The translations under genes and the position numbers were made by a program. From Parietichytrium sp. I65-24A (taxonomy: Eukaryota; Sar; Bigyra; Thraustochytrida; Thraustochytriidae): a DNA stretch of 37,362 nucleotides. The notes below the pieces were generated by a model. That model did not search any database. It was not told where the DNA came from and saw nothing but the letters and a program-made list of their open reading frames with translations. The stretch lies in contig BLSF01000125.1 in assembly GCA_012862575.1 (NCBI GenBank), forward strand, positions 1 through 37,362, read 5' to 3'. Shown here in pieces: positions 2,978 through 37,231 of the stretch (position 1 is the first letter of the stretch; each line of letters opens with the position of its first letter).

Positions 2978-5900
2978 TCAGTAGCTCACATTAGCAAGCG
3001 CGTTCTTCTTCAAAGCAAGACGGATCGCTGAAGCTGTTTCAGCGCCAATTTCAGAGTGGCCAAGACTGGGTATTTACAGAAAGCGAGAAGAGGTCGACAG
3101 CCGCATCGAAAGAACAAGGTCAGGAAAGATATGCTAGAGTATTTCACGTCATCGACACCAAAATCACACGTACTTCAAACAAGTCAGCGCAGTGTTCTTC
3201 TCCAACGCGCGACCGATCGCTGATGCTCCTTCATCGCCAATACTACTTCTGTAAAGACTATTTATTTCCAGAAAAAGACGAGAGGTCGCCAGCCGCAAAC
3301 AAAGAAAAAGGTCAGCAAAGATATGCTGGAGTGTGTCAATAAATCGACGCCAAAACCACACGTACTCCAACCAAGTCAGTGCAGTGTTCTTCTCCAGCGC
3401 GAGACCAATCGCCGATCCTCCTGCAGCACCAATGCCATTGTATTGAAGACTATTTATTTTCAGAAAGCGACAAGAGGTCGCCAGCCACCAAGTCCGAGAA
3501 AGGTCAGCAAGAGACTAATCTCTTTCACCAAACCGGTGTCAAAGTCACACGTACTCCAATCTAGTCAGCGCAGTGTTCTTCTCCAACGCGCGACAGATCG
3601 CTGATGCTCCTTCATCGCCAATACTATTTTTGTAAAGCCTATTTATTTCCAGAAAAAGACGAGAGGCCGCCAGCCGCAAACAAAGAAAATGGTCAGCAAA
3701 GATATGCTGGAGTATGTCAATAAATCGACGCCAAAACCACACGCACTTCAGCCAAGTCAGCGCAGTGTTCTTCTCCAGCGCGAGACCAATCGCCGATCCT
3801 CCTGCAGCACCAATGCCATTGTATTGAAGACTATTTATTTTCAGAAAGCGACAAGAGGTCGCCAGCCGCAAACAAAGAAAAAGGTCAGCAAAGATATGCT
3901 GGAGTATGTCAATAAATCGACGCCAAAACCACACGTACTTCAAGTCAGTCAGCGCAGTGTTCTTCTCCAGCGCGAGACCAATTGCCGATCCTCCTGCAGC
4001 ACCAATGCCATTGTATTGAAGACTATTTATTTTCAGAAAGCGACAAGAGGTCGCCAGCCACCAAGTCCGAGAAAGGTCAGCAAGAGACTAATCTCTTTCA
4101 CCAAACCGGTGTCAAAGTCACACGTACTCCAATGTAGTCAGCGCAGTGTTCTTCTCCAACGCGCGACCGATCGCCGATGCTCCTTCATCGCCAATTCTAG
4201 TGTAGAATAGACTATTTATTTCCAGAAAGCGACAACAAGTCGCCAGCCGCAAACAAAGAAAAAGGTCAGCAACGACATGCTGGAGTATGTCAAGAAGGGA
4301 CCAAGTCATACATACTCCAGGGAAGTGAGCACATTGTTCTTCTTCAACGCACGACCGATCGCTGATGCCCCTTTAGCTTTTATAATATTGCCCCTGAGAC
4401 TAGATCACGAATCAAGACGCAAAACTTGTCAGCGACTCAGCACGAGCTACTTTAGTGAGACACCAAATGTTTTCACTTGGAAACGTCACACATACTCCAC
4501 GGAAGTCAGCGATGTATTCTTCTTCAACGCGCGACCGATCGTTGTTGCTCCTTTGCCGTCAATTTCATTATCGCAGAGACTATTTCCAGAAATATCACGA
4601 AATCGTCAGCCGCCAAGCACGAGAACATGTCAGATGTGTTAGACAACCATTTCGCGAGACGAACGACTGCACAACACTACTAGCTAGTACACGTACGACA
4701 AACTAGTCAATGTAGTGTTCTTCTCCAGTCCATCAGCCAGAGTTGATACAAACTTGGATTTCCTCCACCAAGCGAGCCTCAGAAGATCAGGGAGCGTTCC
4801 CTTGATGGACATAAAAGTTGAGTTGAGTCTGTTCATATGAAGAGGGCCAAACTGTCAGCGATTGAAAAACTGAGAAAAGCGAGACGATTGAGCAACATTA
4901 TGCAACCGCTCTAAAATTCAAACGTACTTTAGCGACGTCAGAGTAGTATTCTTTGACAACGCGCGGCCGATTGCTGCTGCTCCTTTACTACCAATAGGAT
5001 TACCGGAAAGACTGTCTCCAGAAAAGCGAAGAAATTGTTAGCTGCAGAGCGCGATAACGTTTAGCAAGCTTTCAAGACCATCAAAAGGGCTATACGTACT
5101 CCAAAAACCTCAGTGCGGTGTTTTTTGCCAACGCGCTGCCGATCACTGATCCCCCTTCAGGACCAATCTTATTCCTTGAGAGACTGTATCAGAAAACGAC
5201 AAAAACTGTCAGCATCAGAACGCGGCAATGTTTGCCAAGCTGAACACGCCTCCTTCGCAGGGCCGTACGTACTCCAAGAATACCAGTACGGAATTTTCTG
5301 CCAACGCGCGGCCGATCGCTGATCCACCTTCAGGGCCAATATCATTATTTGAAAGACTAACATTCAACAAGAAACGTCATGAAACTAAACCGTCAGCTGC
5401 GGAGCACGACAACGTTTGGCAAACTTGGGACTCTTGGGAGGGCCGTACGTACTCCAGAAACATCAGTGTGGTGTTTCTTGCCAACGCGCGGCCGATCACC
5501 GATGCTCCTTCATTTCGAAACCCATTCCATGAAAGACTAATTCCAGGTTACATGGTACCGCCAGCGACAAACCATCGAGATACTTAGTATGGGTAAGAAG
5601 TGTTTTCGCAAAATAAGTGTCAAAGCCGCACATACGTACTCCACACAAGTAAGCGCAGTGTTCTTCTCCAGCGCACAAGCGATTTCTGATATTTGTTCGG
5701 CATTCATTCCAACTCCATAAGCACTATCTCAAAGGCAATACATTGTCAGCCACAGGGGACGAGAAAGGTTAGCGCAGGAAGGGTGGCTCTGAATCTTTCT
5801 AGCGATTCCCACCTTGTCAGGGTTCTACTCGCTCAATGCCTCACTTCCTCGGCGAAGACTCAACATATGCGCGACCTACCTAATCTGCCGAAGTGTTTTG

Positions 5901-6153
5901 TTCCCTTTGAGCGCATAGGCAAGCCCTCTCGCTTTACCCTGATCTGGCCATCGGGATTGAAAACTTTGCGTAGAAGCACATTTCAGGTTAGAGAACGGCC
6001 ACCCTAAAAAGTAAAAACTGCGTGGCGGCCAACTTACGAAACGGCCTCTTGCTGCTCCAACGCCTTGAGCCAAGCCTCGAGCGAGTCCTTCTCGCTCATG
6101 CCCCAAAACGTCGACTTGACTCCACATATTTCTTCTTTTTCGTACCCGCCCAT
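2978..6153 (-). CDS. Ribonuclease-inhibitor-type LRR protein, one repeat per exon
   Basis: Inferred exons (minus strand, in order): 6153-6038, 5963-5880, 5723-5640, 5536-5453, 5356-5273, 5183-5100, 5011-4928, 4777-4697, 4579-4496, 4399-4316, 4211-4128, 4022-3939, 3830-3747, 3638-3555, 3449-3366, 3257-3174 and 3065-2978 (ends TGA). Exon 1 encodes a 38-residue head with STFW and WLKALEQQEAV. Every repeat exon is 84 nt (one is 81) and cut in phase 2. Splicing TTGGA to TCTT recreates Leu-Asp/Glu-Leu, and each exon yields a 28-residue unit such as SIGDEGASAIGRALEKNTAL. Donors are mostly GTACGT (also GTAAGT, GTAGGT, GTATGT, GTGCGT); acceptors are mostly TAG or CAG. Introns are 74-156 nt and often have a CTGAC branch-like motif before a T-rich tract. 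Total is about 486 residues with no stop or frameshift. LRRs of this type bind proteins; the specific ligand is unknown. Splicing is inferred, not demonstrated. Confidence 0.75.
3066..5639 (-). repeat. Tandem exon-intron units of the LRR array
   Basis: Units of about 180-200 bp, each an 84-nt LRR exon plus an intron, repeat head to tail. Between 3174 and 4211 two exon types and their introns alternate with near identity: the GDEGAS type and the GAAGGS type. This is evidence of recent duplication of whole exon-intron blocks. Units above 4211 are more diverged, so the array is oldest toward its 5' (gene) end. Confidence 0.8.
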
Positions 6154-7585
6154 CTTCCCTCCCTTAACTCAGTTCCTTCCAAAACTCCAAAGCTCTTTAC
6201 ACGCGACACTGCCTTTCTCTCACTCACTAATTCACTCACTCACTCACTCACTCACTCACTCACTCACTCAGTCCACTTGGCAGTGTGTGTACACGAACGT
6301 ACGTACGTACGTGTACGCAACTCTCACCACCACACCTACGCAGTAAAGTAACGCTTTCGCTTACGGGTGCTACTACGGGTACCGGCACGTGCGTAGTGTA
6401 CGTGTACGTACGTACACACTTTCACCAGCGGTGACCTTCAAAGCCTAGCTAGCTAGTAGCAATCTGGTAGAGCTATCTTAGCCTCTACTTCTAGGTAGTC
6501 GAGCTAGCGAGGGTTGAGTGAGTGTCAGAGAGGAAGGACTGTTAGCTTCAAGCTTAGCGAATGGTTAGCGAACAGCGGGAGTCCTACCCGTCCGTAGCTA
6601 CTATTGCTACTATCATTACAACTCCTTAGCCAGGGGAAGGTGTGTAGGATTTAGTAATTCTTAGGAGACAGCTTAAACGGTAGTAGTGAACTGCCGTGAA
6701 TACACACACATATGTGCGCACTGCGTAGAATTCCGCGAGTGAGAGAGGCCAGTGCCAGTGAGTGCTGCAAGTACGCGAGTGAGTGAATGAATGAGTGAAT
6801 GAATGAGTGAGTGAATGAGTGAATGAGTGAATGAGTGAGTGAACGAGTGAACGAGTGAGTGAGTGAGCGAGTAAATGAATTAGTGAGTGAGAGAGAGGCA
6901 GTGTCGCGTGAAGAGAGTTTTGGAATTTTGGAAGGAACTGAGACAAGGGAGGGAAGATGGGCAAGTACGAAGACTATGAAGTATGTGGAGTCAAGTCGAC
7001 GTTTTGGTGCGTAGATAAGATGGACTCGTTCGAGGATTGGNTACACACTTTCACCAGCGGTGACCTTCAAAGCCTAGCTAGCTAGTAGCAATCTGGTAGA
7101 GCTATCTTAGCCTCTACTTCTAGGTAGTCGAGCTAGCGAGGGTTGAGTGAGTGTCAGAGAGGAAGGACTGTTAGCTTCAAGCTTATCGAATGGTTAGCGA
7201 ACAGCGGGAGTCCTACCCGTCCGTAGCTACTATTGCTACTATCATTACAACTCCTTAGCCAGGGGAAGGTGTGTAGGATTTAGTAATTCTTAGGAGACAG
7301 CTTAAACGGTAGTAGTGAACTGCCGTGAATACACACACATATGTGCGCACTGCGTAGAATTCCGCGAGTGAGAGAGGCCAGTGCCAGTGAGTGCTGCAAG
7401 TACGCGAGTGAGTGAATGAATGAGTGAATGAATGAGTGAGTGAATGAGTGAATGAGTGAATGAGTGAGTGAACGAGTGAACGAGTGAGTGAGTGAGCGAG
7501 TAAATGAATTAGTGAGTGAGAGAGAGGCAGTGTCGCGTGAAGAGAGTTTTGGAATTTTGGAAGGAACTGAGACAAGGGAGGGAAG
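6154..7585. promoter_or_regulatory. Shared flank between divergent LRR genes, with TGAG/ACTC repeats
   Basis: This lies between the ATG at 6153 (minus) and the ATG at 7586 (plus). It holds (ACTC)n near 6228-6270, the complementary (TGAG/TGAA)n at about 6775-6885 and 7403-7515, and alternating ACGT palindromes near 6296-6315 and 6400-6415. Its two ends are inverted copies of each other. I infer promoter and 5'-UTR function for both genes. ORFs rich in SLTHS here are repeat translations. Confidence 0.45.
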
Positions 7586-7669
7586 ATGGGCAAGTACGAA
7601 GACTATGAAGTATGTGGAGTCAAGTCGACGTTTTGGTGCGTAGATAAGATGGACTCGTTCGAGGATTGG
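6413..7669. repeat. 628-bp direct duplication flanking a single N
   Basis: 6413-7040 and 7042-7669 are the same 628-bp sequence with one difference that I can find (G at 6557, T at 7186). They are separated only by the undetermined base at 7041. The left copy ends inside LRR exon 1 (its ATG is at 6957), exactly where the right copy also contains that exon. This may be two overlapping contig ends that were not merged. Confidence 0.85.
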
Positions 7670-8184
7670 CTCAAGGCGTTGGAGCAGCAAGAGGCCGTTT
7701 GGTAAGTTGGCCGCCACGCAGTTTTTACTTTTTAGGGTGGCCGGTCTCTAAGCTGAAATGTGCTTCTACGCAAAGGTTTGAAGGTCCATGGCCAGATCAG
7801 GGTCAAGCGAGAGGGCTTGTCGTTGCACTCGAGGGGAACAAATCACTTCGGCAGATTAGGTAGGTCGCGCAGATGTTGAGTCTTCGCCGAGGAAGTGAGG
7901 CATTGAGCGAGAAGAACTCTGACAAGGTTGGAATTGCGAAAAAGGCTCATAACTACCAACCTACCTGTAAACTAACCTGTACACTTTCTCGTCTCCTGTG
8001 GCTGACAATATATTGCCTTTGAGATAGTGTTTGTGGAGTTGGAATGAATGCCAAACAAATATCAGAAATCGCGACAACTGATTTGCAATTTGCAATGAAG
8101 GGTGAAGGAGTAAAACAAAACTACTTGTATCTGCTTGGCTGTTTGGGAGGTCGAACAGAGTTGAGAGAACATTTGGTTAGGTAA
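7586..8184 (+). pseudogene. Truncated LRR gene (exons 1-3), inverted copy
   Basis: Exon 1 is 7586..7701: ATG, 38 codons plus 2 nt, ending WLKALEQQEAV at a GTAAGT donor. Exon 2 is 7776..7859, 84 nt, containing GLVVALEGNKSLRQI, with a GTAGGT donor. Exon 3 starts at 8028 after GAGATAG and matches exon 3 of the minus-strand gene (5723-5640) for about 45 nt, to about 8072. There the LRR sequence is replaced by a dispersed segment also found at 11738 and 14323. The frame happens to stay open to TAA at 8182-8184, so a short chimeric protein is possible, but the LRR array is lost. I call it a broken gene. Confidence 0.65.
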
Positions 8185-8251: not shown

Positions 8252-9145
8252 TCAAACTGATGGCTGAATTTCATTCTTTGTTTCGACGGCTTTGCTGCTG
8301 GAGATCTTGAGCTTGTATCCTGCAAAGATGAAAAGAATGAGTGCTGCAAATACACCAAACCCGATGGCAGCAGCAGTCTCTGAGGACATTCCCCAAACAT
8401 CAAGGTTGATAAAATACTCCACATCAACGTTTTTGAATGTCCATTTTAGCTCCGCGCCGCTGAGAATTTGGACGTAACCATTCTCTTCAGCCATCGGCAA
8501 GCAAGTCTCTTCGATCGGAGAACCAGAGCAGGTTGTGTCAGAACGATTGTGCACTGAAAAGGACCCGTCTTCTTTGAGAAGTATGTTGTAGTCTACCCGA
8601 AAATGGCAACCAGTGGATATCAGAAATCTGCTCTCATCGAAGAGCTCGGGATCAATAAGCTCGGCCGTGGTGTTGCGAGCCTTTGCACACCACTCTTCGC
8701 GCGAGACGTTAAATTCTGCAGATTTTACAGACTTCTGCCGGTAAAATACAGACTTTGCCATGTCAAATGTCTTGATCTCATATTTGATAAATGTGTCACG
8801 ATCAAAATATTTGCACGAGGTATCTATGGGCAAAGTTCCTCTGAAGTTCTCGTCATCACCACGACTATACCCTGATGTAGCTAATGTCTCGCAATTTTCA
8901 TCTTCAAAGTATGCATAGTATTCAGCTTCAGATGATGTCTCAACGGCCGCGTTAGCGAAAGATGTGCCATCGGAATCGCCATCGCGTCTCAGGCAGACAT
9001 TGTACAAAGAGTCTAAACCCACAGTGCCGACCGTAGGAGTTTTGCACGTTTTATCTCTGTAACGGTAAACCGCAAGTCCTTGGAGGCCGGTGGCGGTCTG
9101 AATCAGGCCTGCGAATGCCACGCACGCACTGATGCCGAGTCTCAT
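8252..9145 (-). CDS. Type I membrane protein, copy 1
   Basis: The ORF has 297 residues from ATG 9145. It has a clear N-terminal signal peptide (residues 1 to about 20, hydrophobic, ending TATG), then a Cys-containing extracellular domain of about 240 residues with N-glycosylation sequons (NVS, NTT, NRS). A single membrane segment lies at about residues 258-282 (AAAIGFGVFAALILFIFAG), followed by a short tail ending EIQPSV. I do not recognise the family. It is unlikely to be spliced, because the frame is intact from signal peptide to tail. A close paralogue lies at 11910-12809 on the same strand, with conserved flanks on both sides. Surface or secretory-pathway location is inferred; function is unknown. 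Confidence 0.7.
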   Translation of the reverse strand: MRLGISACVAFAGLIQTATGLQGLAVYRYRDKTCKTPTVGTVGLDSLYNVCLRRDGDSDGTSFANAAVETSSEAEYYAYFEDENCETLATSGYSRGDDENFRGTLPIDTSCKYFDRDTFIKYEIKTFDMAKSVFYRQKSVKSAEFNVSREEWCAKARNTTAELIDPELFDESRFLISTGCHFRVDYNILLKEDGSFSVHNRSDTTCSGSPIEETCLPMAEENGYVQILSGAELKWTFKNVDVEYFINLDVWGMSSETAAAIGFGVFAALILFIFAGYKLKISSSKAVETKNEIQPSV

Positions 9146-10339
9146 CTTGGGAGCTGTTTGGTTGCAACCTAGTCGGGTCGATATTCAGATGGAGTTTCCG
9201 GACTGCAGCGTGCTGAGGCTTCACTCGATTCGTAATCTTATTCTCACCACATTTGCTAATTAGCCAAATCGATAGTCAATCCCCCAGCATGTGGAAACTC
9301 TGCAGCGAAGACACCTCCACGAAGCATTCTATAGAGAGGAATAGAGCTGCCGTGAGGTATCCGCAACTGTCAAGCACGAAGAAGACCGCCGAAGGCGGGC
9401 GCAACGTGACTTTGGCTTGTTTCCAAGATCGATCGATCCAGACCGCTGTTCCTACTCAGGAGAGGCACTTTACTCTAGTCGTATTGCGCAGTTTTGAAAC
9501 AATAATTTAAACCTTGGAAGTGTGTACCGCTGTACGTACCGGTACCCGAGTGCTCCTACAACCCAACCTGTCTGGCGATGGCAGGAAGTTACGTGTACTA
9601 AGCTGGTGCTAATGTGTACCGTAATCCTCGCAGTAACTTGCTGGCGCCAGTATTGAGATCTGCTTCTTCGCAGTCAACGCAGATCAACGCAGTTTGTAGT
9701 TGTGGCGATTCTTACAACCTCACTTGGGAGTGAATTGTGGAATGTGGAAATGTTACAGAACTCAAAGTCCACCCGAGTCCCATCGTGTACGGTACTCACT
9801 GTCAGTACTGGCATTGCCTGTGAGTAAAACCAATTCACCTCACACGTCAACGCATGAAAGTTCCAGCGATCCGATTGAACGAGCGCTACTAAACTTGAGT
9901 AGTCTTGCAATTAGTATCCTTTGACACCTTTGACATCCTTTGACACCCGTTGACTTGGAGTTGGACTGGCAATCTTGAGCCGTGAACTTCGCTAAGGATA
10001 GTGAGCAGCAGTATCTGGTACTGAGTACTTACTCTTTTTCTTTTGTAAACTTTCCACAAGAATACAAGTTCTAAGTTCCAGTTTTGAGCCCGTCAGCCCT
10101 GGCAGCTAAGGCTCAGGCTATTTGTGGCACATCTTCTTCACTGTCAACACGGATTTCAGCGATTTCAGACATGAGTTGAAGTACCGTACTTTCGACAGTG
10201 CCAGTAGTGTACTAGGTATGTGTATGTGTACACGTACAGTCAACTCATTTGACTACTAGAGCAACTTAGAGTAACCTTTGTTTGATTTTGTAGTTCCAAC
10301 GTTTAAAATCACCGCTCAAGCCGTGAATTTCACTCGGGT
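9146..10339. other. Upstream region of membrane-protein copy 1, part of tandem duplicate
   Basis: No gene is supported. The DNA is nearly the same as 12810-14015, so it is part of the duplicated unit and includes the presumed promoter of the minus-strand gene. It contains GTAC-rich palindromes near 9525-9545, and the segments 9470-9770 and 10020-10165 that reappear inverted further right. Positions 9248-9370 have a diverged relative at about 17875-17990. Confidence 0.5.
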
Positions 10340-11909: not shown

Positions 11910-12809
11910 TCAAACTGATGGCTGAATTTCATTCTTTGTTTCGACGGCTTTGCTGCTGCGGGAGATCTTGAGCTTGAATCCTGCAAAGACGAACAGAATG
12001 AGTGCTGCAGATACACCAAACCCGATGGCAGCAGCAGTCTCTGAGGACATTCCCCAAACATCAAGGTTGATAAAATACTCCATATCAACGTTTTTGAATG
12101 TCCATTTTAGCTCCGATCCGCTGAGAATTTGGACGTAACCATCCCTTGTAACCATCGGCAAGCAAGTCTCTTCGATCGGAGAACCAGAGCAGGTTGTGTC
12201 AGAACGATTGTGCACTGAAAAGGACCCGTCTTCTTTGAGAAGTACGTTGTAGTCTGTCTGCAAATAGCAACCAGGGAATATCAGAAAGCGGCTCTCAGAG
12301 AAGAGCTCGGGATCAATAAGCTCGGTCGTGGTGATGCGAGCCTTGTCACACCACTCTTCGCGCGAGACGTTAAATTCTCCAGAGTATACTTGCTTTTCCC
12401 GGTAAAATACAGACTTTGACATGTCAAATGTCTTGAACTCGAATTTGCCAGAGCCGCCTTTCCAAGTGTGGCATGAGGTATCTATGGGCAAAGTTCCTCT
12501 AAAGTTAAAGTCATTACCACGACTATGATTTGATGTAGCCAATGTCTCGCAATTTTCATCTTCAAAGTATGCATAGTATTCAACTTCAGATGATGTCTCA
12601 ACGGCAGCGTTAGCGTAAGATGGGATGTCATCCCAAGAATCCCAATAGCGTCTCAGGCAGACATTGTACAAACTGTATATACTCACACTGCCCTTCTGAG
12701 AATTTTTGCACTCTTCATCGCTGTATGTGACCCACGCAAGTCCTTCGAGGCCGGTGGCGGTCTGAATCAGGCCTGCGAATGCCACGCACGCACTGATGCC
12801 GAGTCTCAT
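11910..12809 (-). CDS. Type I membrane protein, copy 2
   Basis: The ORF has 299 residues from ATG 12809 and is a close paralogue of 8252-9145. It has the same signal peptide, ectodomain with matching Cys and N-glycosylation positions, membrane segment (AAAIGFGVSAALILFVFAG) and EIQPSV tail. Differences cluster in the first half of the ectodomain and around residues 135-150. The last 150 residues are almost identical. The flanking DNA is also duplicated, so the pair arose by segmental duplication of roughly 2.3 kb rather than retroposition. Function is unknown; cell-surface location is inferred. Confidence 0.7.
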   Translation of the reverse strand: MRLGISACVAFAGLIQTATGLEGLAWVTYSDEECKNSQKGSVSIYSLYNVCLRRYWDSWDDIPSYANAAVETSSEVEYYAYFEDENCETLATSNHSRGNDFNFRGTLPIDTSCHTWKGGSGKFEFKTFDMSKSVFYREKQVYSGEFNVSREEWCDKARITTTELIDPELFSESRFLIFPGCYLQTDYNVLLKEDGSFSVHNRSDTTCSGSPIEETCLPMVTRDGYVQILSGSELKWTFKNVDMEYFINLDVWGMSSETAAAIGFGVSAALILFVFAGFKLKISRSSKAVETKNEIQPSV

Positions 12810-14085
12810 CTTGGGAGCTGTTTGGTTGCAACCTAGTCGGGTCGATATTCAGATGGAGTTTCCGGACTGCAGCGTGCTGAGGCTTCACTCGATTCGTATT
12901 CTTATTCTCACCACATTTGCTAATTAGCCAAATCGATAGTCAATCCCCCAGCATGTGGAAACTCTGCAGCGAAGACACCTCCACGAAGCATTCTATAGAG
13001 AGGAATAGAGCTGCCGTGAGGTATCCGCAACTGTCAAGCACGAAGAAGACCGCCGAAGGCGGGCGCAACGTGACTTTGGCTTGTTTCCAAGATCGATCGA
13101 TCCAGACCGCTGTTCCTACTCAGGAGAGGCACTTTACTCTAGTCGTAATCTTATTGCGCAGTTTTGAAATAATAATTTAAACCTTGGAAGTGTGTACCGC
13201 TGTACGTACCGGTACCTGAGTGCTCCTACATGCTCCTACAACCCAACCTGTCTGGCGATGCAAGGAAGTTACGTGTACTAGGTCTGTGCTAATGCGTACC
13301 GTAATCCTCGCAGTGACTTGCTGGCGCCAGTATTGAGATCTGCTTCTTCGCAGTCAACGCAGATCAACGCAGTTTGTAGTTGTGGCGATTCTTACAACCT
13401 CACTTGGGAGTGAATTGTGGAATGTCGAAAAGTTGCAGGACTCACACCACCTGAGTGCCATTGCGTACGGTACTCACTGTCAGTACCGGTACTGGCATTG
13501 CCTGTGAGTAAAACCAATTTCACCTCACACTTCAACGCATGAAAGTTCCAGCGATCCGATTGAACGAGCGCTACTAAACTTGAGTAGTCTTGCAATTAGT
13601 ATCCTTTGACACCTTTGACATCCTTTGACACCCGTTGACTTGGAGTTGGACTGGCAATCTTGAGCCGTGAACTTCGCTAAGGATAGTGAGCAGCAGTATC
13701 TGGTACTGAGTACTTACTCTTTTTCTTTTGTAAACTTTCCACAAGAATACAAGTTCTAAGTTCCAGTTTTGAGCCCGTCAGCCCTGGCAGCTAAGGCTCA
13801 GGCTATTTGTGGCACATCTTCTTCACTGTCAACACGGATTTCAGCGATTTCAGACAAGAGTTGAAGTACCGTACTTTTGACTTCATGTGCTAAGTGTACT
13901 AGGTATGTGTATGTGTACACGTACAGTCAACTCATTTGACTACTAGCGTAACTTAGAGTAACCTTTGTTTGATTTTGTAGTTTCAACGTTTAAAATCACC
14001 GCTCAAGCCGTGAATTTCCCAAAACGTCTTTCTCCGATATGGAAGCCGTTTTGCGCCTGGCGCGGTACGCTTCAACCTTGTCGGT
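12810..14085. other. Upstream region of membrane-protein copy 2
   Basis: This is the direct duplicate of 9146-10339 plus about 10796-10850, lacking the inverted segment. It contains the same GTAC palindromes (near 13195-13216) and the presumed promoter of the minus-strand gene ending at ATG 12809. I see no gene. Confidence 0.5.
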
Positions 14086-20104: not shown

Positions 20105-20305
20105 ACGCGGCAAGATCAGCGCATCGTTAATCGCCAAGTATCGCCAACTCGCCACTTGCCAATACTTGCCAATACTTGCCACCGTGACTTGCCAATACTC
20201 GCCATTTGCCACTTGGAGATTGGCATTTGAGTTATTTGCGCTGTTTGAACTGTTTGAGCTGTTTGAGCGCAGCGAGGACAGATCGTCTGGGCCAGCAGGC
20301 GCAGA

Positions 20306-22906
20306 ATGTTGCGAAGCTTGAAGATTGCTGCGATTTTGGCGGTGCTTGCGGTGCTTGCGAATGGAGAGCGTGAGACTGAGGGGCTGATGGCGCTGTACTG
20401 GTTTCGACAGGAGGAATGTGCGGGAGCGAGCTTTGCGCCGGAGCCTGGGTTTGAGACGTTGGGCGCAATGACGTATAATGCGACAAGGTATGCGGCTGAT
20501 TCGGAGTCGATAAGTGATGTGACGTACAAGTGCCCGCAGATTGTGGAGACGGTGAATTCGTCCGTGCTGACGTACCGGAAGGCGCATAATGGAGTGCATT
20601 TTTCCGGGTTGAGGCAGAACACTGGCTTGACGTATCCAGAGTATGAGTTTGCCCAGTCAGCGAGTAATATCTCGGGACTTGAACTGTCGCGTGTTTTGAC
20701 TTTGGAGTTTTGGGTCAAGACTGGGGATTTGACTGAAGAGGATAAAAATTTGGTACTCTTTGAAATTGGGAAAGACGAGCTCACTTCGAGTAGTTCTAAC
20801 TGGGAATGCGGAACCAACGACTTTGACGCGCAATTGACGTACAACCATGGAGCAGGAAAGAAGAATTTTTCATTTGAGTATAGACGAAGTGAGTCTTCAT
20901 GCTTTCAAGTGACTCTTGATGCTTCTCCTCTGGAGTCAGGGAAAGTCTATCACATAGCCTTTGAGGCAACAAGTGTCATAAATAGAGCCAGTGGTATTAT
21001 GATGAAGATCTATGTCACCGAAGCCTCGGGAGCATTCTCCGAAGAGTCTTCAGCCAGAATAGGATACGGCGCCTTTATTGCACCATCTACTTGGACCTCC
21101 ACCCACACGGTAAGTTGAGTTAATATTTGTTGCCCACAAGCCACGCCGCCTCCCCTCCGCAGCCCCACCTCCCTCTCTCCCTCCGCCACCGCCATCCCTA
21201 TCTCTCTCTCTCTCTCTCCCCCTCCGTCCCTCTCCGCGGGGAGCACTGAGCGCGGGTGGAGGGATGGAGGGAAGGACGGAAAGGAGGGGGGAATGGGGAG
21301 AGGAGGGAGGGCAAGTGGCCGTGAGAGGAGTGCGGAGGGGAGGATGGGAGGGAGAGAGAGCGGTGCACTGACGATGGTGCTTTTTTTGTTTGTTTTGTTT
21401 GGGTTTGTTGGATGGGTTGGGTGGATGGGGATGGCGCGGATGGATTGGTGCTGGGTGATGGTTTTGTGATGCGGTTGCTCGTGGTGAATAATATCATAGG
21501 TCAAGTTGGGATCCAATCCATTTGTTATGTCTTCTGCCAACACAGCAGCAGCAGGCGGATTTAACTCATTCCCAGGAGACATTCTGGGATTCGCCATGTA
21601 CAACATGCAGCTCAGTGATGCCCAGCTTCAGGCCAACTTTGAGGCGGGCATTCCAAATAGCACTCCAGTAATGCCAAATGTTCAGACGCTTGCAGGCGAG
21701 GAGGACACTCAGACCCAGAACACCATCTCCGTCTACGACTTTGACGAGCGGTTCTTTGGCGCCGCCGCCGACTACGTCGTCGAGGTGAGCACCAACCTCT
21801 CTTACGTGTCCGCTTCGCTCGGGGATGTGGGTGGCGAGGTGCGATTGACCCCTGATGGTGAGGTGGTGTATGCGCCATACGAAATTACCGGCACTTCATT
21901 CTACTTTGAGCCGACGAATGCGAACTCCTACGGTGGTCCAGCCACGTTCACCGCCAAGGTGAAGGATAGTGCCGGCGCTGAGAGTGCGGGAAGGGGAGTG
22001 ATCCACATCGATGTGAGCCCAGAGAACGATGCGCCAACTGCAATTCTCACAACGGAGACCCCGATTTTAATTCCTCAGACACGGTCCAAGCTCCTCAAGC
22101 TGCGCGGTTTTGACGTGGACTGCAGCATCAGCCAGGACACTACCTCCGGGTCCTGCGAGGAATTTGGCATGGAAAAGTTGACAATCACCGAGTATCTGCA
22201 GGAAGTCAACCTTGGTGTGCTCTACATTCCTTCCGCTGGCTTGAGCAGGACGAGCACTTCTGACGATTGCATAGGCTACGCTCCCAGCTCAACACTTGTG
22301 AAGCCAGGTTTCGAGTTTTATTTTGCAACCATGTCCGAAGGGTCGTACGTGACCGGAGAGCAGTTTGCATATGTCTGCTTTGAGAGCTGCTTAGAGGGAA
22401 GCAAGACCAACAACTGCCGGAACGGCACTGCGCAGAATGTTGACGGCATTGTCGGGTACACTGCGTTCAGCTTTACTGTCACTGACCGCGCTGGTAGCTC
22501 CTCTGTCGCCACCGTAAACGTGACTGTGACTTCGGTGCCTCAGACTAGCGACGAAAGCAGCAGCAACAGCATGGACAAATCAGTGAGCTTCTGGGCCGCA
22601 ATCTCCGCAACAGCGCTCTTGATTTGCGGAGTCTGTTACTGCTGTGCTCAATGCATCATCCGCAATGCACTTGCAGGAAAGGGAGCCGCCATGTGGTTTG
22701 TGCGCAACATACTCTTCACACACATTGATCCTTATGAGGAGCGCCCCGAGTTTCGCGTCCAGTGCTGTGCGCATCTCTTGCATGTCCTCTGTCCGTGCTG
22801 CCGCAGGTTTGACATAGACCAGAGTGAGCTTCCGACCAAGAGGAATTGGAAGAAAGCTGTGCTCTACAACAGCTCGGTTGTCGGCAGCCCCGTTGTTTCA
22901 ATTTGA
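20306..22906 (+). CDS. Type I membrane protein, LamG-like plus cadherin-like region (two exons)
   Basis: Exon 1 is 20306..21109 and ends at GTAAGT in phase 0. Exon 2 is 21500..22906, after ATCATAG. The product is about 736 residues. It has a signal peptide (residues 1 to about 20), then a concanavalin/LamG-type region (about 25-310) with LTLEFWVKTG, LVLFEIG and, across the splice, LGFAMYNMQLSDAQLQANF. A cadherin-like/tandem-95 type segment follows, marked by AGEEDTQTQN near its start and SPENDAPTA near its end. A Cys-containing region with N-glycosylation sequons leads to a membrane helix at about 632-654 (FWAAISATALLICGVCYCC). The tail of about 80 residues is Cys-rich (CCAHLLHVLCPCC). Such domains bind carbohydrate or proteins at the cell surface; the ligand is unknown. 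Paralogous exons lie at 32436-33833 and 36253-37041, supporting the exon boundaries. Confidence 0.8.
21110..21499 (+). other. Intron of the LamG-like gene
   Basis: 390 nt, GTAAGT to TAG. It is rich in C/T then G/A tracts. Its 3' half is strongly similar to 32225-32435, and its 5' end to 37042-37250, which marks both as introns of paralogues. Confidence 0.75.
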
Positions 22907-24115: not shown

Positions 24116-26563
24116 CCTAATGACGTCAGCGCGGTGTTTCTTTCCAGCGCGCGGCCGATCGCTGATCCTCCTTCATCGCCAATCTTGTTATCACAAAGAC
24201 TATTCCATTGCAAAGAGGCATAAAGTCGTCAGACCATAAGTCCAAGAAAGTTAAGCAAGGTAATCAGCTTTTTCACCAAGCCGGTGTCAACGTCACACGT
24301 ACTTCAACCAAGTCAGCGCAGTGTTCTTCTCCAACGCGCGACCGATCGCTGATGCCCCTTCAGCGCCAATCTTGTTATCACAAAGACTATTCCATTGCAA
24401 AGAGGCATAAAGTCGTCAGACCATAAGTCCGAGAAAGTTTAGCTCTCACCAAACCGGTTTCAAAGTCACACGTACAACAATGTAGTCAGCGCAGTGTTCT
24501 TCTCCAACGCGCGGCCGATCGCTGATGCTCCTTCATCGCCAATCTTGTTATCACGAAGACTATTTCATTGCAAAGAGGCATAAAGTCGTCAGACCATAAG
24601 TCCGAGAAAGTTCCGCAAGAGACCAATCTCTTTCACCAAACCGGTGTCAAAGTCACACGTACTTCAACCAAGTCAGCGCAGTGTTCTTCTCCANNNNNNN
24701 NNNNNNNNNNNNNNNNNNNNNNNNNNNNNNNNNNNNNNNNNNNNNNNNNNNNNNNNNNNNNNNNNNNNNNNNNNNNNNNNNNNNNNNNNNNNNNNNNNNN
24801 NNNNNNNNNNNNNNNNNNNNNNNNNNNNNNNNNNNNNNNNNNNNNNNNNNNNNNNNNNNNNNNNNNNNNNNNNNNNNNNNNNNNNNNNNNNNNNNNNNNN
24901 NNNNNNNNNNNNNNNNNNNNNNNNNNNNNNNNNNNNNNNNNNNNNNNNNNNNNNNNNNNNNNNNNNNNNNNNNNNNNNNNNNNNNNNNNNNNNNNNNNNN
25001 NNNNNNNNNNNNNNNNNNNNNNNNNNNNNNNNNNNNNNNNNNNNNNNNNNNNNNNNNNNNNNNNNNNNNNNNNNNNNNNNNNNNNNNNNNNNNNNNNNNN
25101 NNNNNNNNNNNNNNNNNNNNNNNNNNNNNNNNNNNNNNNNNNNNNNNNNNNNNNNNNNNNNNNNNNNNNNNNNNNNNNNNNNNNNNNNNNNNNNNNNNNN
25201 NNNNNNNNNNNNNNNNNNNNNNNNNNNNNNNNNNNNNNNNNNNNNNNNNNNNNNNNNNNNNNNNNNNNNNNNNNNNNNNNNNNNNNNNNNNNNNNNNNNN
25301 NNNNNNNNNNNNNNNNNNNNNNNNNNNNNNNNNNNNNNNNNNNNNNNNNNNNNNNNNNNNNNNNNNNNNNNNNNNNNNNNNNNNNNNNNNNNNNNNNNNN
25401 NNNNNNNNNNNNNNNNNNNNNNNNNNNNNNNNNNNNNNNNNNNNNNNNNNNNNNNNNNNNNNNNNNNNNNNNNNNNNNNNNNNNNNNNNNNNNNNNNNNN
25501 NNNNNNNGTCAGCGCAGTGTTCTTCTCCAACGCGCGACCGATTGCTGATGCTCCTTCAGCGCCAATTCGATTCCAATAAAGACTATTTCATTACAAAAAC
25601 ACATGAAGTCGTCAGCCTCCAAGTCCGAGAAACTTCCGCAAGAGACCAATCTCTTTCACCAAACCGGTGTCAAAGTCACACGTACTTCAACAAAGTCAGC
25701 GCAGTGTTCTTCTCCAACGCGCGACCGATTGCTGATGCTCCTTCAGCGCCAATTCGATTCCAAGAAAGACTATTTCATTACAAAAACACATGAAGTCGTC
25801 AGCCATCAAGCCCAAGAAAGTTCAGCAAGGTACGAAACCAAACCGGTGTCAAAGTCACACGTACTCCAATGTAGTCAGCGCAGTGTTTTTCTCCAACGCG
25901 CGACCGATCGCTGATGCTCCTCCATCACCAATTCTATTTTCAGCAAGTCTATTTATGATATCAAGAAAAGAAGTCGTCAGCCGCAAAGCGCGAACGCACG
26001 AACGAAGTCAAGGAATATAGTGAACGTTTTAACGCATAGGCCGTGCCAAAGTCACACGTACACCAACGAGGTCAGCGCAGTGTTCTTCTCCAACGCGCGG
26101 CCGATCGCTGATGCTCCTTCATCGCCAATCTCGTTAGAGAAAAGACTATTTCATTACAAAAACACATGAAGTCGTCAGCCACAAAGTCCGAACACGTTTA
26201 GTAAGGTATGAAACATTTTCACCAAACCGGTGTCAAGGTCACACGTAATAGCTCAGTTGCCCCAGCAACGCTCAGCGCATGCACGACGTACCTTAATTGT
26301 TGAAGCGTTTTGTTTCCATGGAGCGCCACGGCCACCTTGATGGCTCCATCTTGCCCCAGGCAATAAGCGTCAAACCTGTGCGTGAAAGGAAAGGCAGCGT
26401 CAGAAAATCAAGTTGCCCGGCTCTTTCACTCAGCTGACGGACGTTACCTCACTTACCGCACGGCTACATGTCGGTCGAGAGCGTTTAGTCCTTCGCCCAA
26501 CGAGCTCACACACCAGAACCTCGACTTGACGCCACAAATATACCGGTCTTGGTACCTTCCCAT
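24116..26563 (-). CDS. Second LRR gene, one repeat per exon, with assembly gap
   Basis: Inferred exons on the minus strand: 26563-26457 (ATG, 35 codons plus 2 nt, GVKSRFWCV core, GTAAGT donor), 26375-26292 (84 nt, CLGQDGAIKVAVALHGNKTL), 26145-26062, 25948-25865, 25769-25686, 25582 into the gap, then from the gap to 24663, 24559-24476, 24386-24303 and 24199-24116. Each complete repeat exon is 84 nt in phase 2 and encodes a 28-residue ribonuclease-inhibitor-type LRR such as RIGAEGASAIGRALEKNTAL. Donors are GTACGT. The head exon is diverged from that of the first gene but keeps frame, phase and the CGVKS-x-FW motif, so it is an older paralogue. The 3' end is unresolved (see 23668-24100). Confidence 0.7.
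24694..25507. other. Assembly gap (814 N) inside the LRR array
   Basis: The run of N begins and ends inside LRR exons (24663 onward and up to 25582). With about 190 bp per unit, some three more repeat exons would fit if the gap length is real. Long ORFs drawn across it are artefacts. Confidence 0.98.
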
Positions 26564-32224: not shown

Positions 32225-33833
32225 CCAAGGCCCGGGAGTGAGGGGAAGGGGTCGCGAGAGGAGTGCGGAGGGGAGAATGGGAGGGATAGAGAGCGTGAGA
32301 GCGGCACACTGACGATGGTGCTTGTTTTGTTTGTTTTGTTTGGGTTTGTTGGATGGGTGGATGGGGGATGACGCGGATGGATTGGTGCTGGGTGATGGTT
32401 TTGTGATGTGGTTGCTCGTGGTGAATAATATATAGGTCAAGTTGGGATCCAATCCATTTGTTATGTCTTCTATCAACACTGCAGCAGCAGGCGGATTTAA
32501 CTCATTCCCAGGAGACGTATTGGGATTCGCCGTGTACAACGTTGAGCTGACTGCGGCCCAGATCCAGGCCAACTTTGAGGCGGGCATTCCCAACAGCGCT
32601 CCAGCCCTGCAAGACCTGCAGACGCTTGCAGGCAAGGAGGACGTTCAGACCCAGAACAACATCTCCGTGTACGATTTGGACGAGGAGTTCTTCGGCGCCG
32701 CCGCCGACTACGTGGTCGAGGTGAGCACCAACGTGTCCGGCGTGTCCGCTTCGCCCGGGGACGTGGGTGGCGAGGTGCGATTGACCACTGACGGCGAGGT
32801 GATGTACGCGCCATACGAAATTACCGGCACTTCTTTCTACTTTACTCCGACCAACGCGAACATCTACGGTGGTCCAGCCACTTTCACCGCCAAGGTGAAG
32901 GATAGCACCGGCGCCGAGAGCCTGGGAAGCGGAGTGATCCACATCGATGTGAGCCCAGAGAACGATGCGCCGACTGCTTTTCTGGCGACGGAGACCCCGA
33001 TTATAATTCCTCAGACACGGTCCAAGCTCCTCAAGCTGCGCGGTTTTGACGTGGACTGCAGCATCAGCCAGGACACAACCTCCGGGTCCTGCGAGGAATT
33101 TGGCATGGAAAAGTTGACAATCACGGAGTATCTGCAAGAAGTCAACCTTGGTGTGCTCTACATTCCTTCCGCTGGCTTGAGCAAGACGAGCACTTCTGAC
33201 GATTGCATAGGCTACGCTCCCACTTCAACACTTGTGAAGCCAGGTTTCGAGTTTTATTTTGGAACCATGTCCGAAGGGTCGTACGTGACCGGAGAGCAGT
33301 TTGCATATGTCTGCTTTGAGAGCTGCTTAGAGGGAAGCAAGACCAACAACTGCCGGAACGGCACTGCGCAGACTGTTGACGGCATCGTCGGGTACACTGC
33401 GTTCAGCTTTACTGTCACTGACCGCGCCGGTAGCTCCTCTGTCGCCACCGTAAACGTGACTGTGACTTCGGTGCCTCAGACTAGCGATGAAAGCATCAGC
33501 AACAGCATAGACACAGTGACCTTATGGGCCGCAATCTCCACAACAGCGCTCTTGATTTGCGGAGTCTGTTACTGCTGTGCTCAATGCATCATCCGCAATG
33601 CACTTGCAGGAAAGGGAGCCGCCATGTGGTTTGTGCGCAACATACTCTTCACACACATTGATCCTTATGAGGAGCGCACCGAGTTTCGCGTCCAGTGCTG
33701 CGCGCATTTCTTGCATGTACTCTGCCCGTGCTGCCGCAGGTTTGACATAGACCAGAGTGAGCTTCCGACCAAGAGGAATTGGAAGAAAGCTGTGCTCTAC
33801 AACAGCTCGGTTGTCGGCAGCGCCGTTGTTTGA
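32225..33833 (+). pseudogene. LamG-like membrane-protein paralogue lacking exon 1
   Basis: 32225-32435 matches the 3' part of the intron at 21110-21499. 32436-33833 is an intact exon 2 (465 codons plus stop) closely similar to the one at 21500, with the same LAGKEDVQTQN, SPENDAPTA, membrane helix and Cys-rich tail. No signal peptide, LamG start or exon 1 is found upstream; the matching DNA starts mid-intron at about 32225. It is therefore a 5'-truncated duplicate. The open frame has been kept, so the duplication is recent, or the exon is used with some other first exon. Differences from the other copy include conservative changes before residue 150 and the TM start (VTLWAAIS). Confidence 0.7.
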
Positions 33834-34022
33834 ATTTGAATTGTATGTTTTCGAACTCTAAAATCGTTTGGCATGTGCGCTCTCAGGTTTGCTTTTCGCT
33901 TTTACCGCGAAACCGTGGCGGCCAAAATCGCGGATTCTGAAGTTGGAGAGGCTATTGAAGAAGGGCAACGCTCTTGTAAAAACGTGCTAGCTAGAATGTG
34001 ATGAGAACCGTTCATTAGTAGG

Positions 34023-36151
34023 ACGGTCACTGGTTGCAGAACGAATTGGTGGAGCCATCGTTGACATGTGAGTCGACCAGTTTTGCAATGATCAATGTAA
34101 TGCAATGAAATCAAAATAATTAATTCAAGTTGGGAAACCCCAATTCCCATAAGTTAACAAATTAAAGCTCAATTAACCTCAACACATAGCATAAATGCAC
34201 CGTATCCGGAAACATTTCACTTGCTCCATTATCACTGCCTTGGCTTCGTGACAATAATTTGCGTATTACCGAACCGAAATAATCAAAACCTTAGACTTTC
34301 GACTAATTAGTACCGCCTTCACGGCATTAAAGTTAACCATGGTCACAGACATAAGACTCTGTTCAAGGAAAACTTCAGTTCGCACACCTTGCGCTGGAGA
34401 AGAAAGCCGGACCTAATGCGCATATAACAGTTTAACTGATACTGTCTCGTTTGCTCGAGACATAAATTGAACAACAATTGTACCGTATAGGCCTCTCTAT
34501 TACTAAAACTAAGGTACACCCAGGTTTCTACGAGCTGCTAATGCGTTCGAGCTTTATTTGTATCCGACTTTTCTTTTTCTGTTCCCTTACTTCCGAGGTA
34601 TTATTTTCCTCATTTATCTGCGTTTATCTGTTGAGTTGCGAGCCTTCCTCCTCGATTTATCCTTGAGCAGTATCTCTTGATAGCGAAAACGTGTGCGGTA
34701 GGAGTTTGGAAAGTCTTCAAAAGAACAAAACGCGAACATCGAGATGCGGAGGTCCCGCCACTGCGTACGGCTCCGCCAATCGATACGCTAAGACTCGCAG
34801 CTCGCACATGCACTCGGCTTGCTGCTTGCTTTCCTGTAGCGTCTCCTACGCAGATGGATAGGGTGAGACTAAAGTGGTGGAAATGACAACCTCCTCTACT
34901 CTACCTACTAGTGGCTTCGTTATAGAACCACTTATCACTAATGTTTCGAGTATCTGATCTTAAGGCGTCCACGTTCCATAGAGTCGCTCATGGTGTACTG
35001 TAGCGCAAAGGTGTGCACTAATATATTGTGGCTGGTATTAAGGTTTGTGATAGGGAAGTATTAGTCAAGCTTTTGTGAGGCGCGCTGGAATGGCGTGGAT
35101 TGGTAGGTAAGTGGATAGCGGAAATGGTGATGAGGCGAGGTGTGAACTTGCCTTCCTCCTCTCCGAGAAGAGCGACGCAGAATGTGAACTGCTTAGTATA
35201 GGTCTACCACAATCATTAACTTTCCTTGGTTCTGATAGAGGCTAGTCGGTACGGTAACATCTCCTATCCTTTCGTAGGTTTATGTTTAGAAGAGCATAGA
35301 AGATCAGTTACTCACTTGAACAGCACCTTGTCCAATGGTCTCGAGAGGAGGGCCTAGACGATAGTATAGAAAATCAAAGTTGAGTACAAATTTTTTCTCT
35401 CATTCAACTTCTCTCTCTTCTCATCCTCCTCACAGCCAGCCCAGAACTTCTCCGCATTTCTTCACAGAACAATCTTTCTCCAATTCACCACGTCCACCTA
35501 ATAATTATATAGTTTTTTCGCCTAATTCGCACACAACTTCTATTCATCCCCTGGATTTGCCTAGTACCCTCATGTGAGGACGTGCCATTCTCCCTCACAG
35601 TAAACCCTCCGAATCCACGCCATATCCACTTACGTGAAACCATAGTACTGATATACCCCCACATCCTCCCTCACATCGCGCCTCCCTCTTCCCTCTCTAT
35701 TCCACAACACACATTTTCTCCTTCCACATCTTCTCCCTCTCTCCCCCTCTCTCCCCTTCTCCCTCTCTCCCATACAACCAACACACAACCCACTCACGCA
35801 CTCCTACCCCTCCACATAACCATCCCCTACTCCCAACCCCAAAACCAAACCACACACACACACCTGCCCAGTTGAGTGAGAGAGAGAGAACAGAAAAAAC
35901 GAAAAGAAAAGTAAAAAAAGCAAGAAAAAAGGAAAGAATAAAAGACACAGAGAGAGAGAAACAGAGAGAAACAGAGAGAGAGAGAGAGAGAGCAAACTGC
36001 ACTCAGCAAAAGACACAACAGTGGACGACCAACACGCGACCGACCGAACGAAATACAGACAGACAAACAGAGAGAGAGAGAGAGAGAGAGTGAAAGAGAG
36101 GGGGGTACGCGGCACGCGGCAGGTGGTACGCGCGCACAGTGCTTCTTCCTT
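34023..36151. other. Intergenic region, no gene seen
   Basis: No supported gene. It contains the second copy of the C/T-rich dispersed element (about 35395-35582), a long pyrimidine tract (35650-35770), and a GA-rich tract with perfect (GA)n runs (35880-36110) leading into the 5' flank of the next gene. ORFs of LSLSLS type are translations of these tracts. Confidence 0.45.
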
Positions 36152-36181
36152 CGCCTCTCTGCGGAACGCCTGTCTCTCGCA
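36152..36181 (+). promoter_or_regulatory. Conserved 30-bp 5'-flank element, second copy
   Basis: Second copy of the element at 20075-20104, about 72 bp before the ATG at 36253 (about 202 bp before the ATG in the first gene). It is part of the presumed promoter or 5'-UTR of the LamG-like gene family. Confidence 0.4.
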
Positions 36182-36252
36182 TCAACGCATCAACTCATCC
36201 ACTCATCTTTTCATCATCCCCACTTGCCAATTGTCAACTGTCGAGCGGCAAG

Positions 36253-37041
36253 ATGGTGCGAAGCGTGAAGATTGCGGCGGTTTTGGCCGTGCTGGCTGCG
36301 TTTGCCAATGGAGAGCGCGAGACTACGGGGCTCAAGGCGTTGTACTGGTTTCGACAGGCGGAGTGTGCGGGAGCCAGCTTTGCGCCGGAGACTGGGTTTG
36401 AGGCGCTCGGGGCGTTGACGTATAATTCTACGAATTATGCGCCGAATTCTGAGTCGACGAGTGATGTTACGTACAAGTGCCCGCAGATTCTGGAGACGGT
36501 GGACTCGAATGTGTTGACGTACCGCAAGGCGCATAATGGTGTGCATTTTTCCGGGTTGAGGCAGAATACTGGGTTGACGTATCCGGAGTACGAGTTTGTC
36601 AAGTCTGCGAGTGATATTTCGGGGCTTGAGTTATCGAATCAGCTGACTTTGGAGTTCTGGATCAAGACTGGGAATTTGCCTAACGAGGACAAGAACTTGG
36701 TGCTCTTTGAGATCGGGCAAGATGAACTTGCAACCAGTGGTTCGAATTGGCAATGTACCAATTCAGTTGACAACTTTGTTGCGCAACTAATTTACAACCC
36801 TAGCAGCGAAGGTTTCACGTTCGGGTACAGAGCCTCATCAGGATGTCTCACAGCCGAGTTCACTTCAACCCCACTTGCGAGCAATTCTGTTTACCACATT
36901 AGCCTATCGACCACCAGAACCTTGGAAAACCCTCTTGGCGCAGCATTCTTCCTTCACGTTACCTTGAGTAGCGATACCGTTGGCACCGCTGTTGTCGCAT
37001 ACAACAATCCATATCTCGGAACCTGGACCTCCACCCACACG
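36253..37041 (+). CDS. LamG-like membrane-protein paralogue, exon 1 (runs off right edge)
   Basis: ATG 36253 starts 263 codons ending at a GTAAGT donor in phase 0, as in the gene at 20306. It has a signal peptide (MVRSVKIAAVLAVLAAFANG), a conserved first half (GLKALYWFRQAECAGASFAP, LTLEFWIKTG, LVLFEIGQDEL) and a more variable second half (residues about 170-250). It ends in the same WTSTHT as the first copy. The open frame extends left of this ATG without a better start. Positions 37042-37362 are the start of the intron; exon 2 lies beyond the window. Secreted or surface carbohydrate/protein binding is inferred from the fold. Confidence 0.75.
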
Positions 37042-37231
37042 GTAAGTTGATTAAAAATTTGTTGCCCACAAGCCCCGCCGCCCCCCTCCGCCTCCCCACC
37101 TCCCTCTCTCTCCGCCCCCTCTCCCCTCCACTCCCACCCCTCTCCCTCCCGCGCCTCCTCCCTCTCTCCCTCCGCCACTCACTCACTCACCCACCCACTC
37201 CCCACGCACACCCACCCACCCGCCATCCCCA

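Follow-up and report, generated by a model that had tools for sequence, protein, structure and literature searches.

A predicted leucine-rich repeat gene with one 28-residue repeat per phase-2 exon, and its large family with ROC-COR(-TIR) members, in Parietichytrium sp. I65-24A

The window analyzed here is the whole stretch C125:1-37362 (37,362 nt) in the 42.5-Mb, 172-contig genome assembly of Parietichytrium sp. I65-24A, apparently a non-photosynthetic eukaryote; light-harvesting families had no match in the genome. Its minus strand carries, at 2978-6153, a predicted leucine-rich repeat (LRR) gene in which each repeat occupies one phase-2 exon, in most cases of 84 nt. This is probably a spliced LRR-only gene of a large family that also has LRR-ROC-COR(-TIR) members, and the family may serve as a recognition repertoire driven by exon exchange.

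Exon structure and repeat type

The gene runs from 6153 to 2978 and comprises 17 exons, and its coding sequence of 1461 nt encodes 486 aa without an internal stop. A first exon of 116 nt with the ATG is followed by 15 internal exons, fourteen of 84 nt and one of 81 nt, and by a last exon of 88 nt that runs to TGA. All fifteen internal exons (5963-5880 to 3257-3174) are in phase 2 and lie between an AG and a GT, and the introns measure 74-156 nt. A preliminary description of this region had proposed such an arrangement, and the predicted exon-per-repeat LRR array is confirmed at 2978-6153.

Exon 1 (6038-6153) encodes the N-terminal 38 aa plus a split codon (MGGYEKEEICGVKSTFW...). Exon 2 (5880-5963) is a diverged, capping-like first LRR that rests on paralogues. 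Exons 3 (5640-5723), 4 (5453-5536), 5 (5273-5356), 6 (5100-5183), 7 (4928-5011), 9 (4496-4579), 10 (4316-4399) and 16 (3174-3257) are 84-nt, phase-2 LRR exons supported by both the gene model and an exon profile. The 81-nt exon 8 (4697-4777) holds a diverged repeat, and its counterpart comes after the early exons in the C40 and C47 genes. Self-alignment added support for exons 11 (4128-4211), 12 (3939-4022), 14 (3555-3638) and 15 (3366-3449), and unit comparison placed exon 13 (3747-3830) nearest to exon 12. Terminal exon 17 (2978-3065) is also an LRR unit; its donor position reads Y-TGA, and the C40 genes end likewise.

Only LRR models passed the cut-off in a Pfam scan of the 486-aa protein, led by LRR_6 (PF13516; 1.3e-70, 10 stretches), and no match was found to NB-ARC, ROCO, kinase or NACHT. 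The repeat consensus was LxxNxIGxEGASAIGRALEKNTALTxLx. Relatives with solved structures were ribonuclease inhibitor (RI)-like LRR chains such as ribonuclease inhibitor, NLRPs, LRRC34 and GALA, and DRC5 matched as well; 5irl among these matches, an uncharacterized entry in the table, is presumably NOD2. The LRR exons of the NOD genes are generally 84 nt. With 28-29 residue repeats matching LRR_6, the array belongs to the RI-like class, and the protein consists of a short N-terminal segment followed by some 16 RI-like LRRs of 28 residues, one per phase-2 exon. By eye, its N-terminus lacks a signal-like hydrophobic start; since it has no signalling domain either, the protein was taken as cytosolic, a location that should be regarded as likely.

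The exon junction falls within the beta-strand, so that each strand is encoded by two exons. The preliminary description expected splicing to restore Leu-Asp/Glu-Leu here. Of the 15 junctions that link exons 2 to 17, nine have Asp, as expected, and none has Glu; Lys, Asn and Ser were found at two junctions each. The junction codon is itself variable.

Exon arrays in the window and the genome

Exon statistics were drawn from the window and 20 fetched stretches of other genome regions. Boundaries were chosen near the profile, with AG and GT or GC required and lengths divisible by three preferred; matches without usable sites, at runs of N or below 15 bits were left out of the boundary-assigned set. 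Within this set, 84 nt was the length of 265 of the 292 exons, and 90 nt that of five. Neighboring introns differed in length (for example, 88 to 113 nt) while most exons stayed at 84 nt. Base counts were made on those 84-nt exons whose predicted boundaries were exact and which contained no N; there were 260 of them, and the window was one of their 20 sources. A single one of the 260 had an in-frame stop, whereas 246 had a stop in one of the alternative frames and 255 in the other, and the bases flanking GT and AG were also conserved (GT and AG themselves being required by the boundary picking).

For a test against chance, 240 exons from other contigs, and none from the window, went into the profile. 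It gave 15 matches in the array of the gene and 8 in a second array of the window, with E-values from 1.7e-4 to 5.6e-29. The reversed window and 20 shuffles in blocks of 3-mers gave no profile match at E<=0.01. The weak points of this support were exon 2, which was unmatched, and exon 8, which was matched only partly.

A stop selected to stand just past the donor (Y-V-stop, 199 of 260 exons) was also considered. It was rejected because nearby intron bases were about equally conserved, and common descent is enough to explain the pattern.

Relatives with ROC-COR and TIR domains

Genes with related exons were found to lead into signalling domains elsewhere in the genome. At locus L028 (C75; 1156-4416, minus strand) an open frame of 1,086 aa joined the last LRR exon continuously with Roc (5.5e-19), COR-A (4.1e-10) and TIR_2 (1.5e-10). 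This final LRR exon has a phase-2 acceptor and reads in frame into Roc-COR-A-TIR_2, and two exon-1 copies upstream were 39-53% identical to that of the window. Locus L036 (C12) showed exon 1, fourteen LRR-exon profile matches, and then a phase-2 acceptor with a Roc-COR-A frame that is incomplete, ending with the fetched stretch. Like first exons and predicted 84-nt exons thus lead in phase into ROC-COR at two loci, one of them with TIR. In addition, L035 (C107) had exon 1, three LRR-exon matches and a frame in which COR-A and TIR_2 accompany an incomplete Roc (second part only), and L037 (C81) opened with the tail of an LRR-like exon (16.4 bits) followed by Roc-COR-A-TIR. COR-A occurred at 11 places in the genome, 10 of them over the cut-off, and four of the 11 were read. 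A ROC domain behind the plus-strand array of C47 was rejected as a further case; it was read as an intron-containing gene for a Rab-like small GTPase and not as a fusion.

The suggestion that the gene is a minimal form therefore held in part: the Pfam scan supported it, but the gene is not isolated, and kindred exons precede ROC-COR(-TIR) frames elsewhere.

Duplication of repeat exons

Exons 14 and 15 repeat exons 11 and 12 at a distance of 573 nt, and the intron that separates the two exons is repeated with them. The two copies of this intron showed 0 differences in 105 positions. The exon pair differed at 16 of 168 bases, and 10 of the 16 differences were located at codons 2, 3, 5 or 26 or at the junction. 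A scan of 21 sources detected ten further tandem duplications, spread over eight of these sources; they measure 287-1,796 nt, with 1-5 whole LRR exons per copy. The pair in the window lies below the limits of that scan and is not among the ten. The idea that symmetric exons allow the number of repeats to change was borne out by these cases.

The nearest relatives of exons 3-7, 9 and 10 were in the C40 and C47 genes and that of exon 16 was in C47, while those of exons 11-15 sit inside the array itself, which suggests that the distal half is the growing part. For 89 of 261 units the nearest relative was on another contig. At L010:493-2172 (C47), an 840-nt block of four whole LRR exons was duplicated at 99.6% identity; the junction of this duplication cuts into a copy of the 81-nt exon, of which a part remains that lacks an acceptor.

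Variable positions and rates of change

Amino-acid entropy among 240 unique exons was 3.75, 3.80, 3.25 and 2.99 bits at codons 2, 3, 5 and 26, respectively, 2.58 bits at codon 8 and at most 1.56 bits at the remaining 22 codons. Codon 8 excepted, we take these variable codons to be the solvent-facing positions of the xLxLxxNx strand. Variation is concentrated on positions 26, 28, 2, 3 and 5 of the predicted concave beta-strand.

All pairs were compared among 251 units (11,729 of 31,375 possible pairs, those with fewer than 40 aligned intron positions being dropped). Codons 2, 3, 5 and 26 differed at 0.625 of their first and second positions. The fraction was 0.183 for fourfold synonymous sites within conserved codons, 0.203 for introns (mismatches only) and 0.103 for other codons. 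Codons 2, 3, 5 and 26 had been picked for their variability, and therefore the test was redone with codons 26, 2 and 3. In this selection-independent test, the upstream intron alone decided which units were paired; the 261 units yielded 61 mutual-best pairs, and in 15 of these the exons were identical. Codons 26, 2 and 3 differed at 79/366 vs. 44/753 for synonymous sites (odds ratio 4.4, p=3e-14), and other codons differed at 124/2684. The concave excess over synonymous sites was present both in the window, C40 and C47 (34/186 vs. 17/392) and in the other arrays (45/180 vs. 27/361), and it persisted in the closest 34 pairs (24/204 vs. 12/436, p=1.1e-5). A separate selection-independent run of 58 pairs agreed; in its closest 30 pairs, codons 2, 3, 5 and 26 differed at 0.154, synonymous sites at 8/373 and the downstream intron at 0.057 (mismatches only). 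Two further comparisons were kept out of the main evidence because their choice of pairs biased them: one binned pairs by intron identity, and the other took the 45 non-identical pairs out of 56 mutual-best ones that had been selected by intron together with conserved codons. A faster change at the predicted concave sites than at synonymous sites is well supported by these counts, which come from a family-level counting method and not from a codon model.

Further copies in the window and the assembly

The exon-1 peptide of the second array matched 69 places in its own genome, 54 of them at E<=1e-3. These places include truncated copies, and two C47 copies of exon 1 were missing from them, so that 69 is a lower bound. 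Five exon-1 copies lie within the window. Besides the gene itself, the minus strand holds another tandem copy at 80-354, of which exons 1 and 2 (exon-1 and exon-2 matches) are present before the contig start cuts it off. The second array (24116-26563, minus strand) has exon 1 at 26563-26459 and exon 2 at 26375-26292, both by matches, followed by LRR exons (profile matches 26151-24110) with an 814-N gap at 24694-25507. On the plus strand there are a partial inverted exon-1 copy that stops at N (6957-7040; exon-1 match) and an inverted truncated copy (7586-8070) in which exon matches cover exons 1, 2 and the start of exon 3 before other sequence begins. Head-to-head exon-1 pairs were seen at L009:7660-9200 (C47) and at 6153/7586 in the window, with long GAGTT or GAGT repeats upstream.

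When contig starts only were counted, 13 of the 69 exon-1 matches (12 contigs) lay on the minus strand less than 2 kb from a start and pointed outward, and one (C137) was on the plus strand. Six such starts were read, and all break inside exons 1-3 or intron 2; the assembly breaks within the exon-per-repeat LRR family. A telomere-proximal location was considered and rejected, as four units of TTAGGG or TTTAGGG, the two telomere types searched, had no match in the assembly, and breaks in repeats explain the contig ends better. Searches for relatives elsewhere found none confirmed by tblastn among 8 pattern matches in viral contigs or among 42 in prokaryote genome contigs.

Interpretation

We consider it probable that the gene belongs to a recognition repertoire that is renewed by exon exchange. 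New alleles would arise when exon-intron units that are nearly identical undergo unequal exchange or gene conversion, and any whole exon could be gained or lost without breaking the frame. Selection would then diversify the solvent-exposed concave residues 26, 28, 2, 3 and 5 of each repeat, and the variable surface at each junction would be built jointly by two neighboring exons. If expressed and spliced as predicted, the protein may offer a cytosolic ligand-recognition surface for sensing non-self, or food and pathogens. The ROC-COR-TIR relatives could act as signalling receptors, and LRR-only members as their partners, decoys or exon reservoir. A germline-encoded repertoire is the simplest account.

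Several points weigh against this proposal. A faster change at the predicted concave sites than in introns is less supported: codons 26, 2 and 3 differed at 79/366 vs. 566/4209 in the downstream intron (mismatches plus gaps), with a weaker p=4.3e-5, and the closest 34 pairs showed no clear excess (24/204 vs. 196/2346, p=0.12). The test was not blind, because codons 26, 2 and 3 were set from the brown-algal sites after the variability had been seen. Paralogous repeat pairs are non-independent, recombination can uncouple an exon from its intron, and the rate tests do not separate LRR-only genes from ROCO genes, at least one of which is included. The first-copy ends of the ten duplications lay outside LRR exons in 13/20 cases and inside them in 7/20, so breakpoints are not confined to introns. 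Finally, most genes with 90-bp LRR exons in Tetrahymena are under purifying selection, according to PMC6564038.

It is rather unlikely, in our view, that the arrays are a selfish or neutral tandem repeat whose units multiply by unequal crossing over, with the LRR-only gene a functionless by-product or decayed copy of an LRR-ROC-COR-TIR receptor. Such an origin would fit the excess of exon-1 places over COR-A places (54 at E<=1e-3 vs. 11, the LRR-only share of the 54 being uncounted), the truncated copies such as that at 7586-8070, and the contigs that end inside exon-per-repeat LRR genes. However, the gene is open over 17 exons with intact splice sites, and 259 of the 260 clean exons are free of in-frame stops. 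Moreover, none of 1,044 variable codons was a stop, where composition predicts about 5.9%, and change is focused on the concave sites with other codons conserved.

A bolder extension of the repertoire proposal seems doubtful. A non-photosynthetic, probably single-celled eukaryote would then possess combinatorial recognition, with 84-nt LRR exons forming one interchangeable stock across the genome and with ligand-facing residues that outpace synonymous sites and perhaps neighboring introns. LRR-only genes and LRR-ROC-COR-TIR receptors would exchange exons, possibly by a dedicated or clonal diversification and not by ordinary germline unequal crossing over.

More improbable still is a housekeeping scaffold, that is, an RI-like LRR protein that binds conserved partners, like ciliary LRR proteins or LRRC34, and in which repeat variation is unimportant. 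Matches to LRRC34, DRC5 and ribonuclease-inhibitor-like chains point in this direction, but the LRRC34 and DRC5 matches are not specific, as RI-like LRR chains of many kinds match; the family is also large, and its ligand-facing positions change above the synonymous rate. That translation runs across the short "introns" and yields one long repeat protein without per-repeat exons is scarcely credible: introns 12, 13 and 15 are open, multiples of three and in frame if retained, which produces a 180-aa stop-to-stop frame across part of the array, but 13 of the 16 introns carry an in-frame stop, intron length varies around exons mostly constant at 84 nt (boundary picking favored multiples of three), and the bases beside GT and AG are conserved.

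Other observations

Two or three similar plus-strand frames for secreted-looking proteins were observed at 20267-22906 and 32436-37050 of the window, with weak, below-cut-off matches to concanavalin-like, carbohydrate-binding and Ig-like models. On the minus strand, 8252-9184 and 11910-12848 hold frames of 310 and 312 aa that closely resemble each other and have hydrophobic ends; no Pfam match was found for the former. Elsewhere in the genome, long open frames with several carrier-protein domains lie on C7 and C66 and measure 4,460 and 5,583 codons, and the PP-binding matches in the genome included no close tandem series of acyl carrier protein (ACP) domains.

Comparison with known systems

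One of the two closest parallels is found in brown algae, and the likeness drawn in the preliminary description holds against PMC11378527, which describes 72-bp phase-2 LRR exons in LRR-ROC-COR genes and their shuffling. As in Ectocarpus and Saccharina, each LRR here corresponds to one phase-2 exon, exons are duplicated, and LRR-only genes stand beside ROCO genes; the LRR-only sequences of Saccharina japonica, with shuffled exons, are presented there as a possible reservoir. Alternative splicing of LRR exons is also reported in these algae. Positive selection acts on concave sites 14, 16, 18 and 19 of the brown-algal ROCO exons (PMC11378527), and an excess of change at concave sites was seen here at the family level. 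From their spacing, we infer that these four sites equal 26, 28, 2 and 3 of the present repeat. The differences are that the brown-algal exon is 72 bp, whereas the exon here is 84 nt and encodes a 28-residue RI-like repeat; that PMC11378527 gives LRR-ROC-COR as the only ROCO arrangement, whereas TIR follows COR in relatives here; that the present gene lacks ROC-COR, while its relatives L028 and L036 carry both domains; and that a common N-terminal exon is present here.

Tetrahymena has tens of thousands of 90-bp phase-2 LRR exons and thousands of young LRR genes, with exon numbers that vary between close paralogues (PMC6564038). These arrays share with ours an exact exon length, phase 2, a varying number of exons and nearest exons that often lie in other genes. 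They differ in an exon of 90 bp instead of 84 nt and in that no ROC-COR-TIR link was seen in PMC6564038 ("roco" is absent from its main text); that paper links them to the REP retrotransposon.

The terminal LRRs of animal NLRs such as NOD1 and NOD2 also have 28 residues (PMC3791470), but no NACHT domain accompanies the repeats of the window protein. The LGR proteins of Protochlamydia have 28-residue RI-like LRRs multiplied by adjacent concatenation (PMC2216083); those genes are bacterial, whereas each repeat is an exon here. A literature search, which left most subscription papers outside, yielded no paper joining the leucine-rich repeat with an 84-bp exon; apart from the brown-algal and Tetrahymena papers, no title among those listed came close to protist LRR genes of the exon-per-repeat kind. 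Relative to brown algae and Tetrahymena, the 84-nt/28-residue unit, the shared first exon and the TIR-bearing ROCO relatives are new.

With 72 bp in brown algae, 90 bp in Tetrahymena and 84 nt here, a similar solution seems to have arisen repeatedly, always in phase 2. The relatives ending in ROC-COR-TIR tie an exon-shuffled sensor to a TIR module, and the family offers a testable candidate for a recognition repertoire beyond animals and plants.

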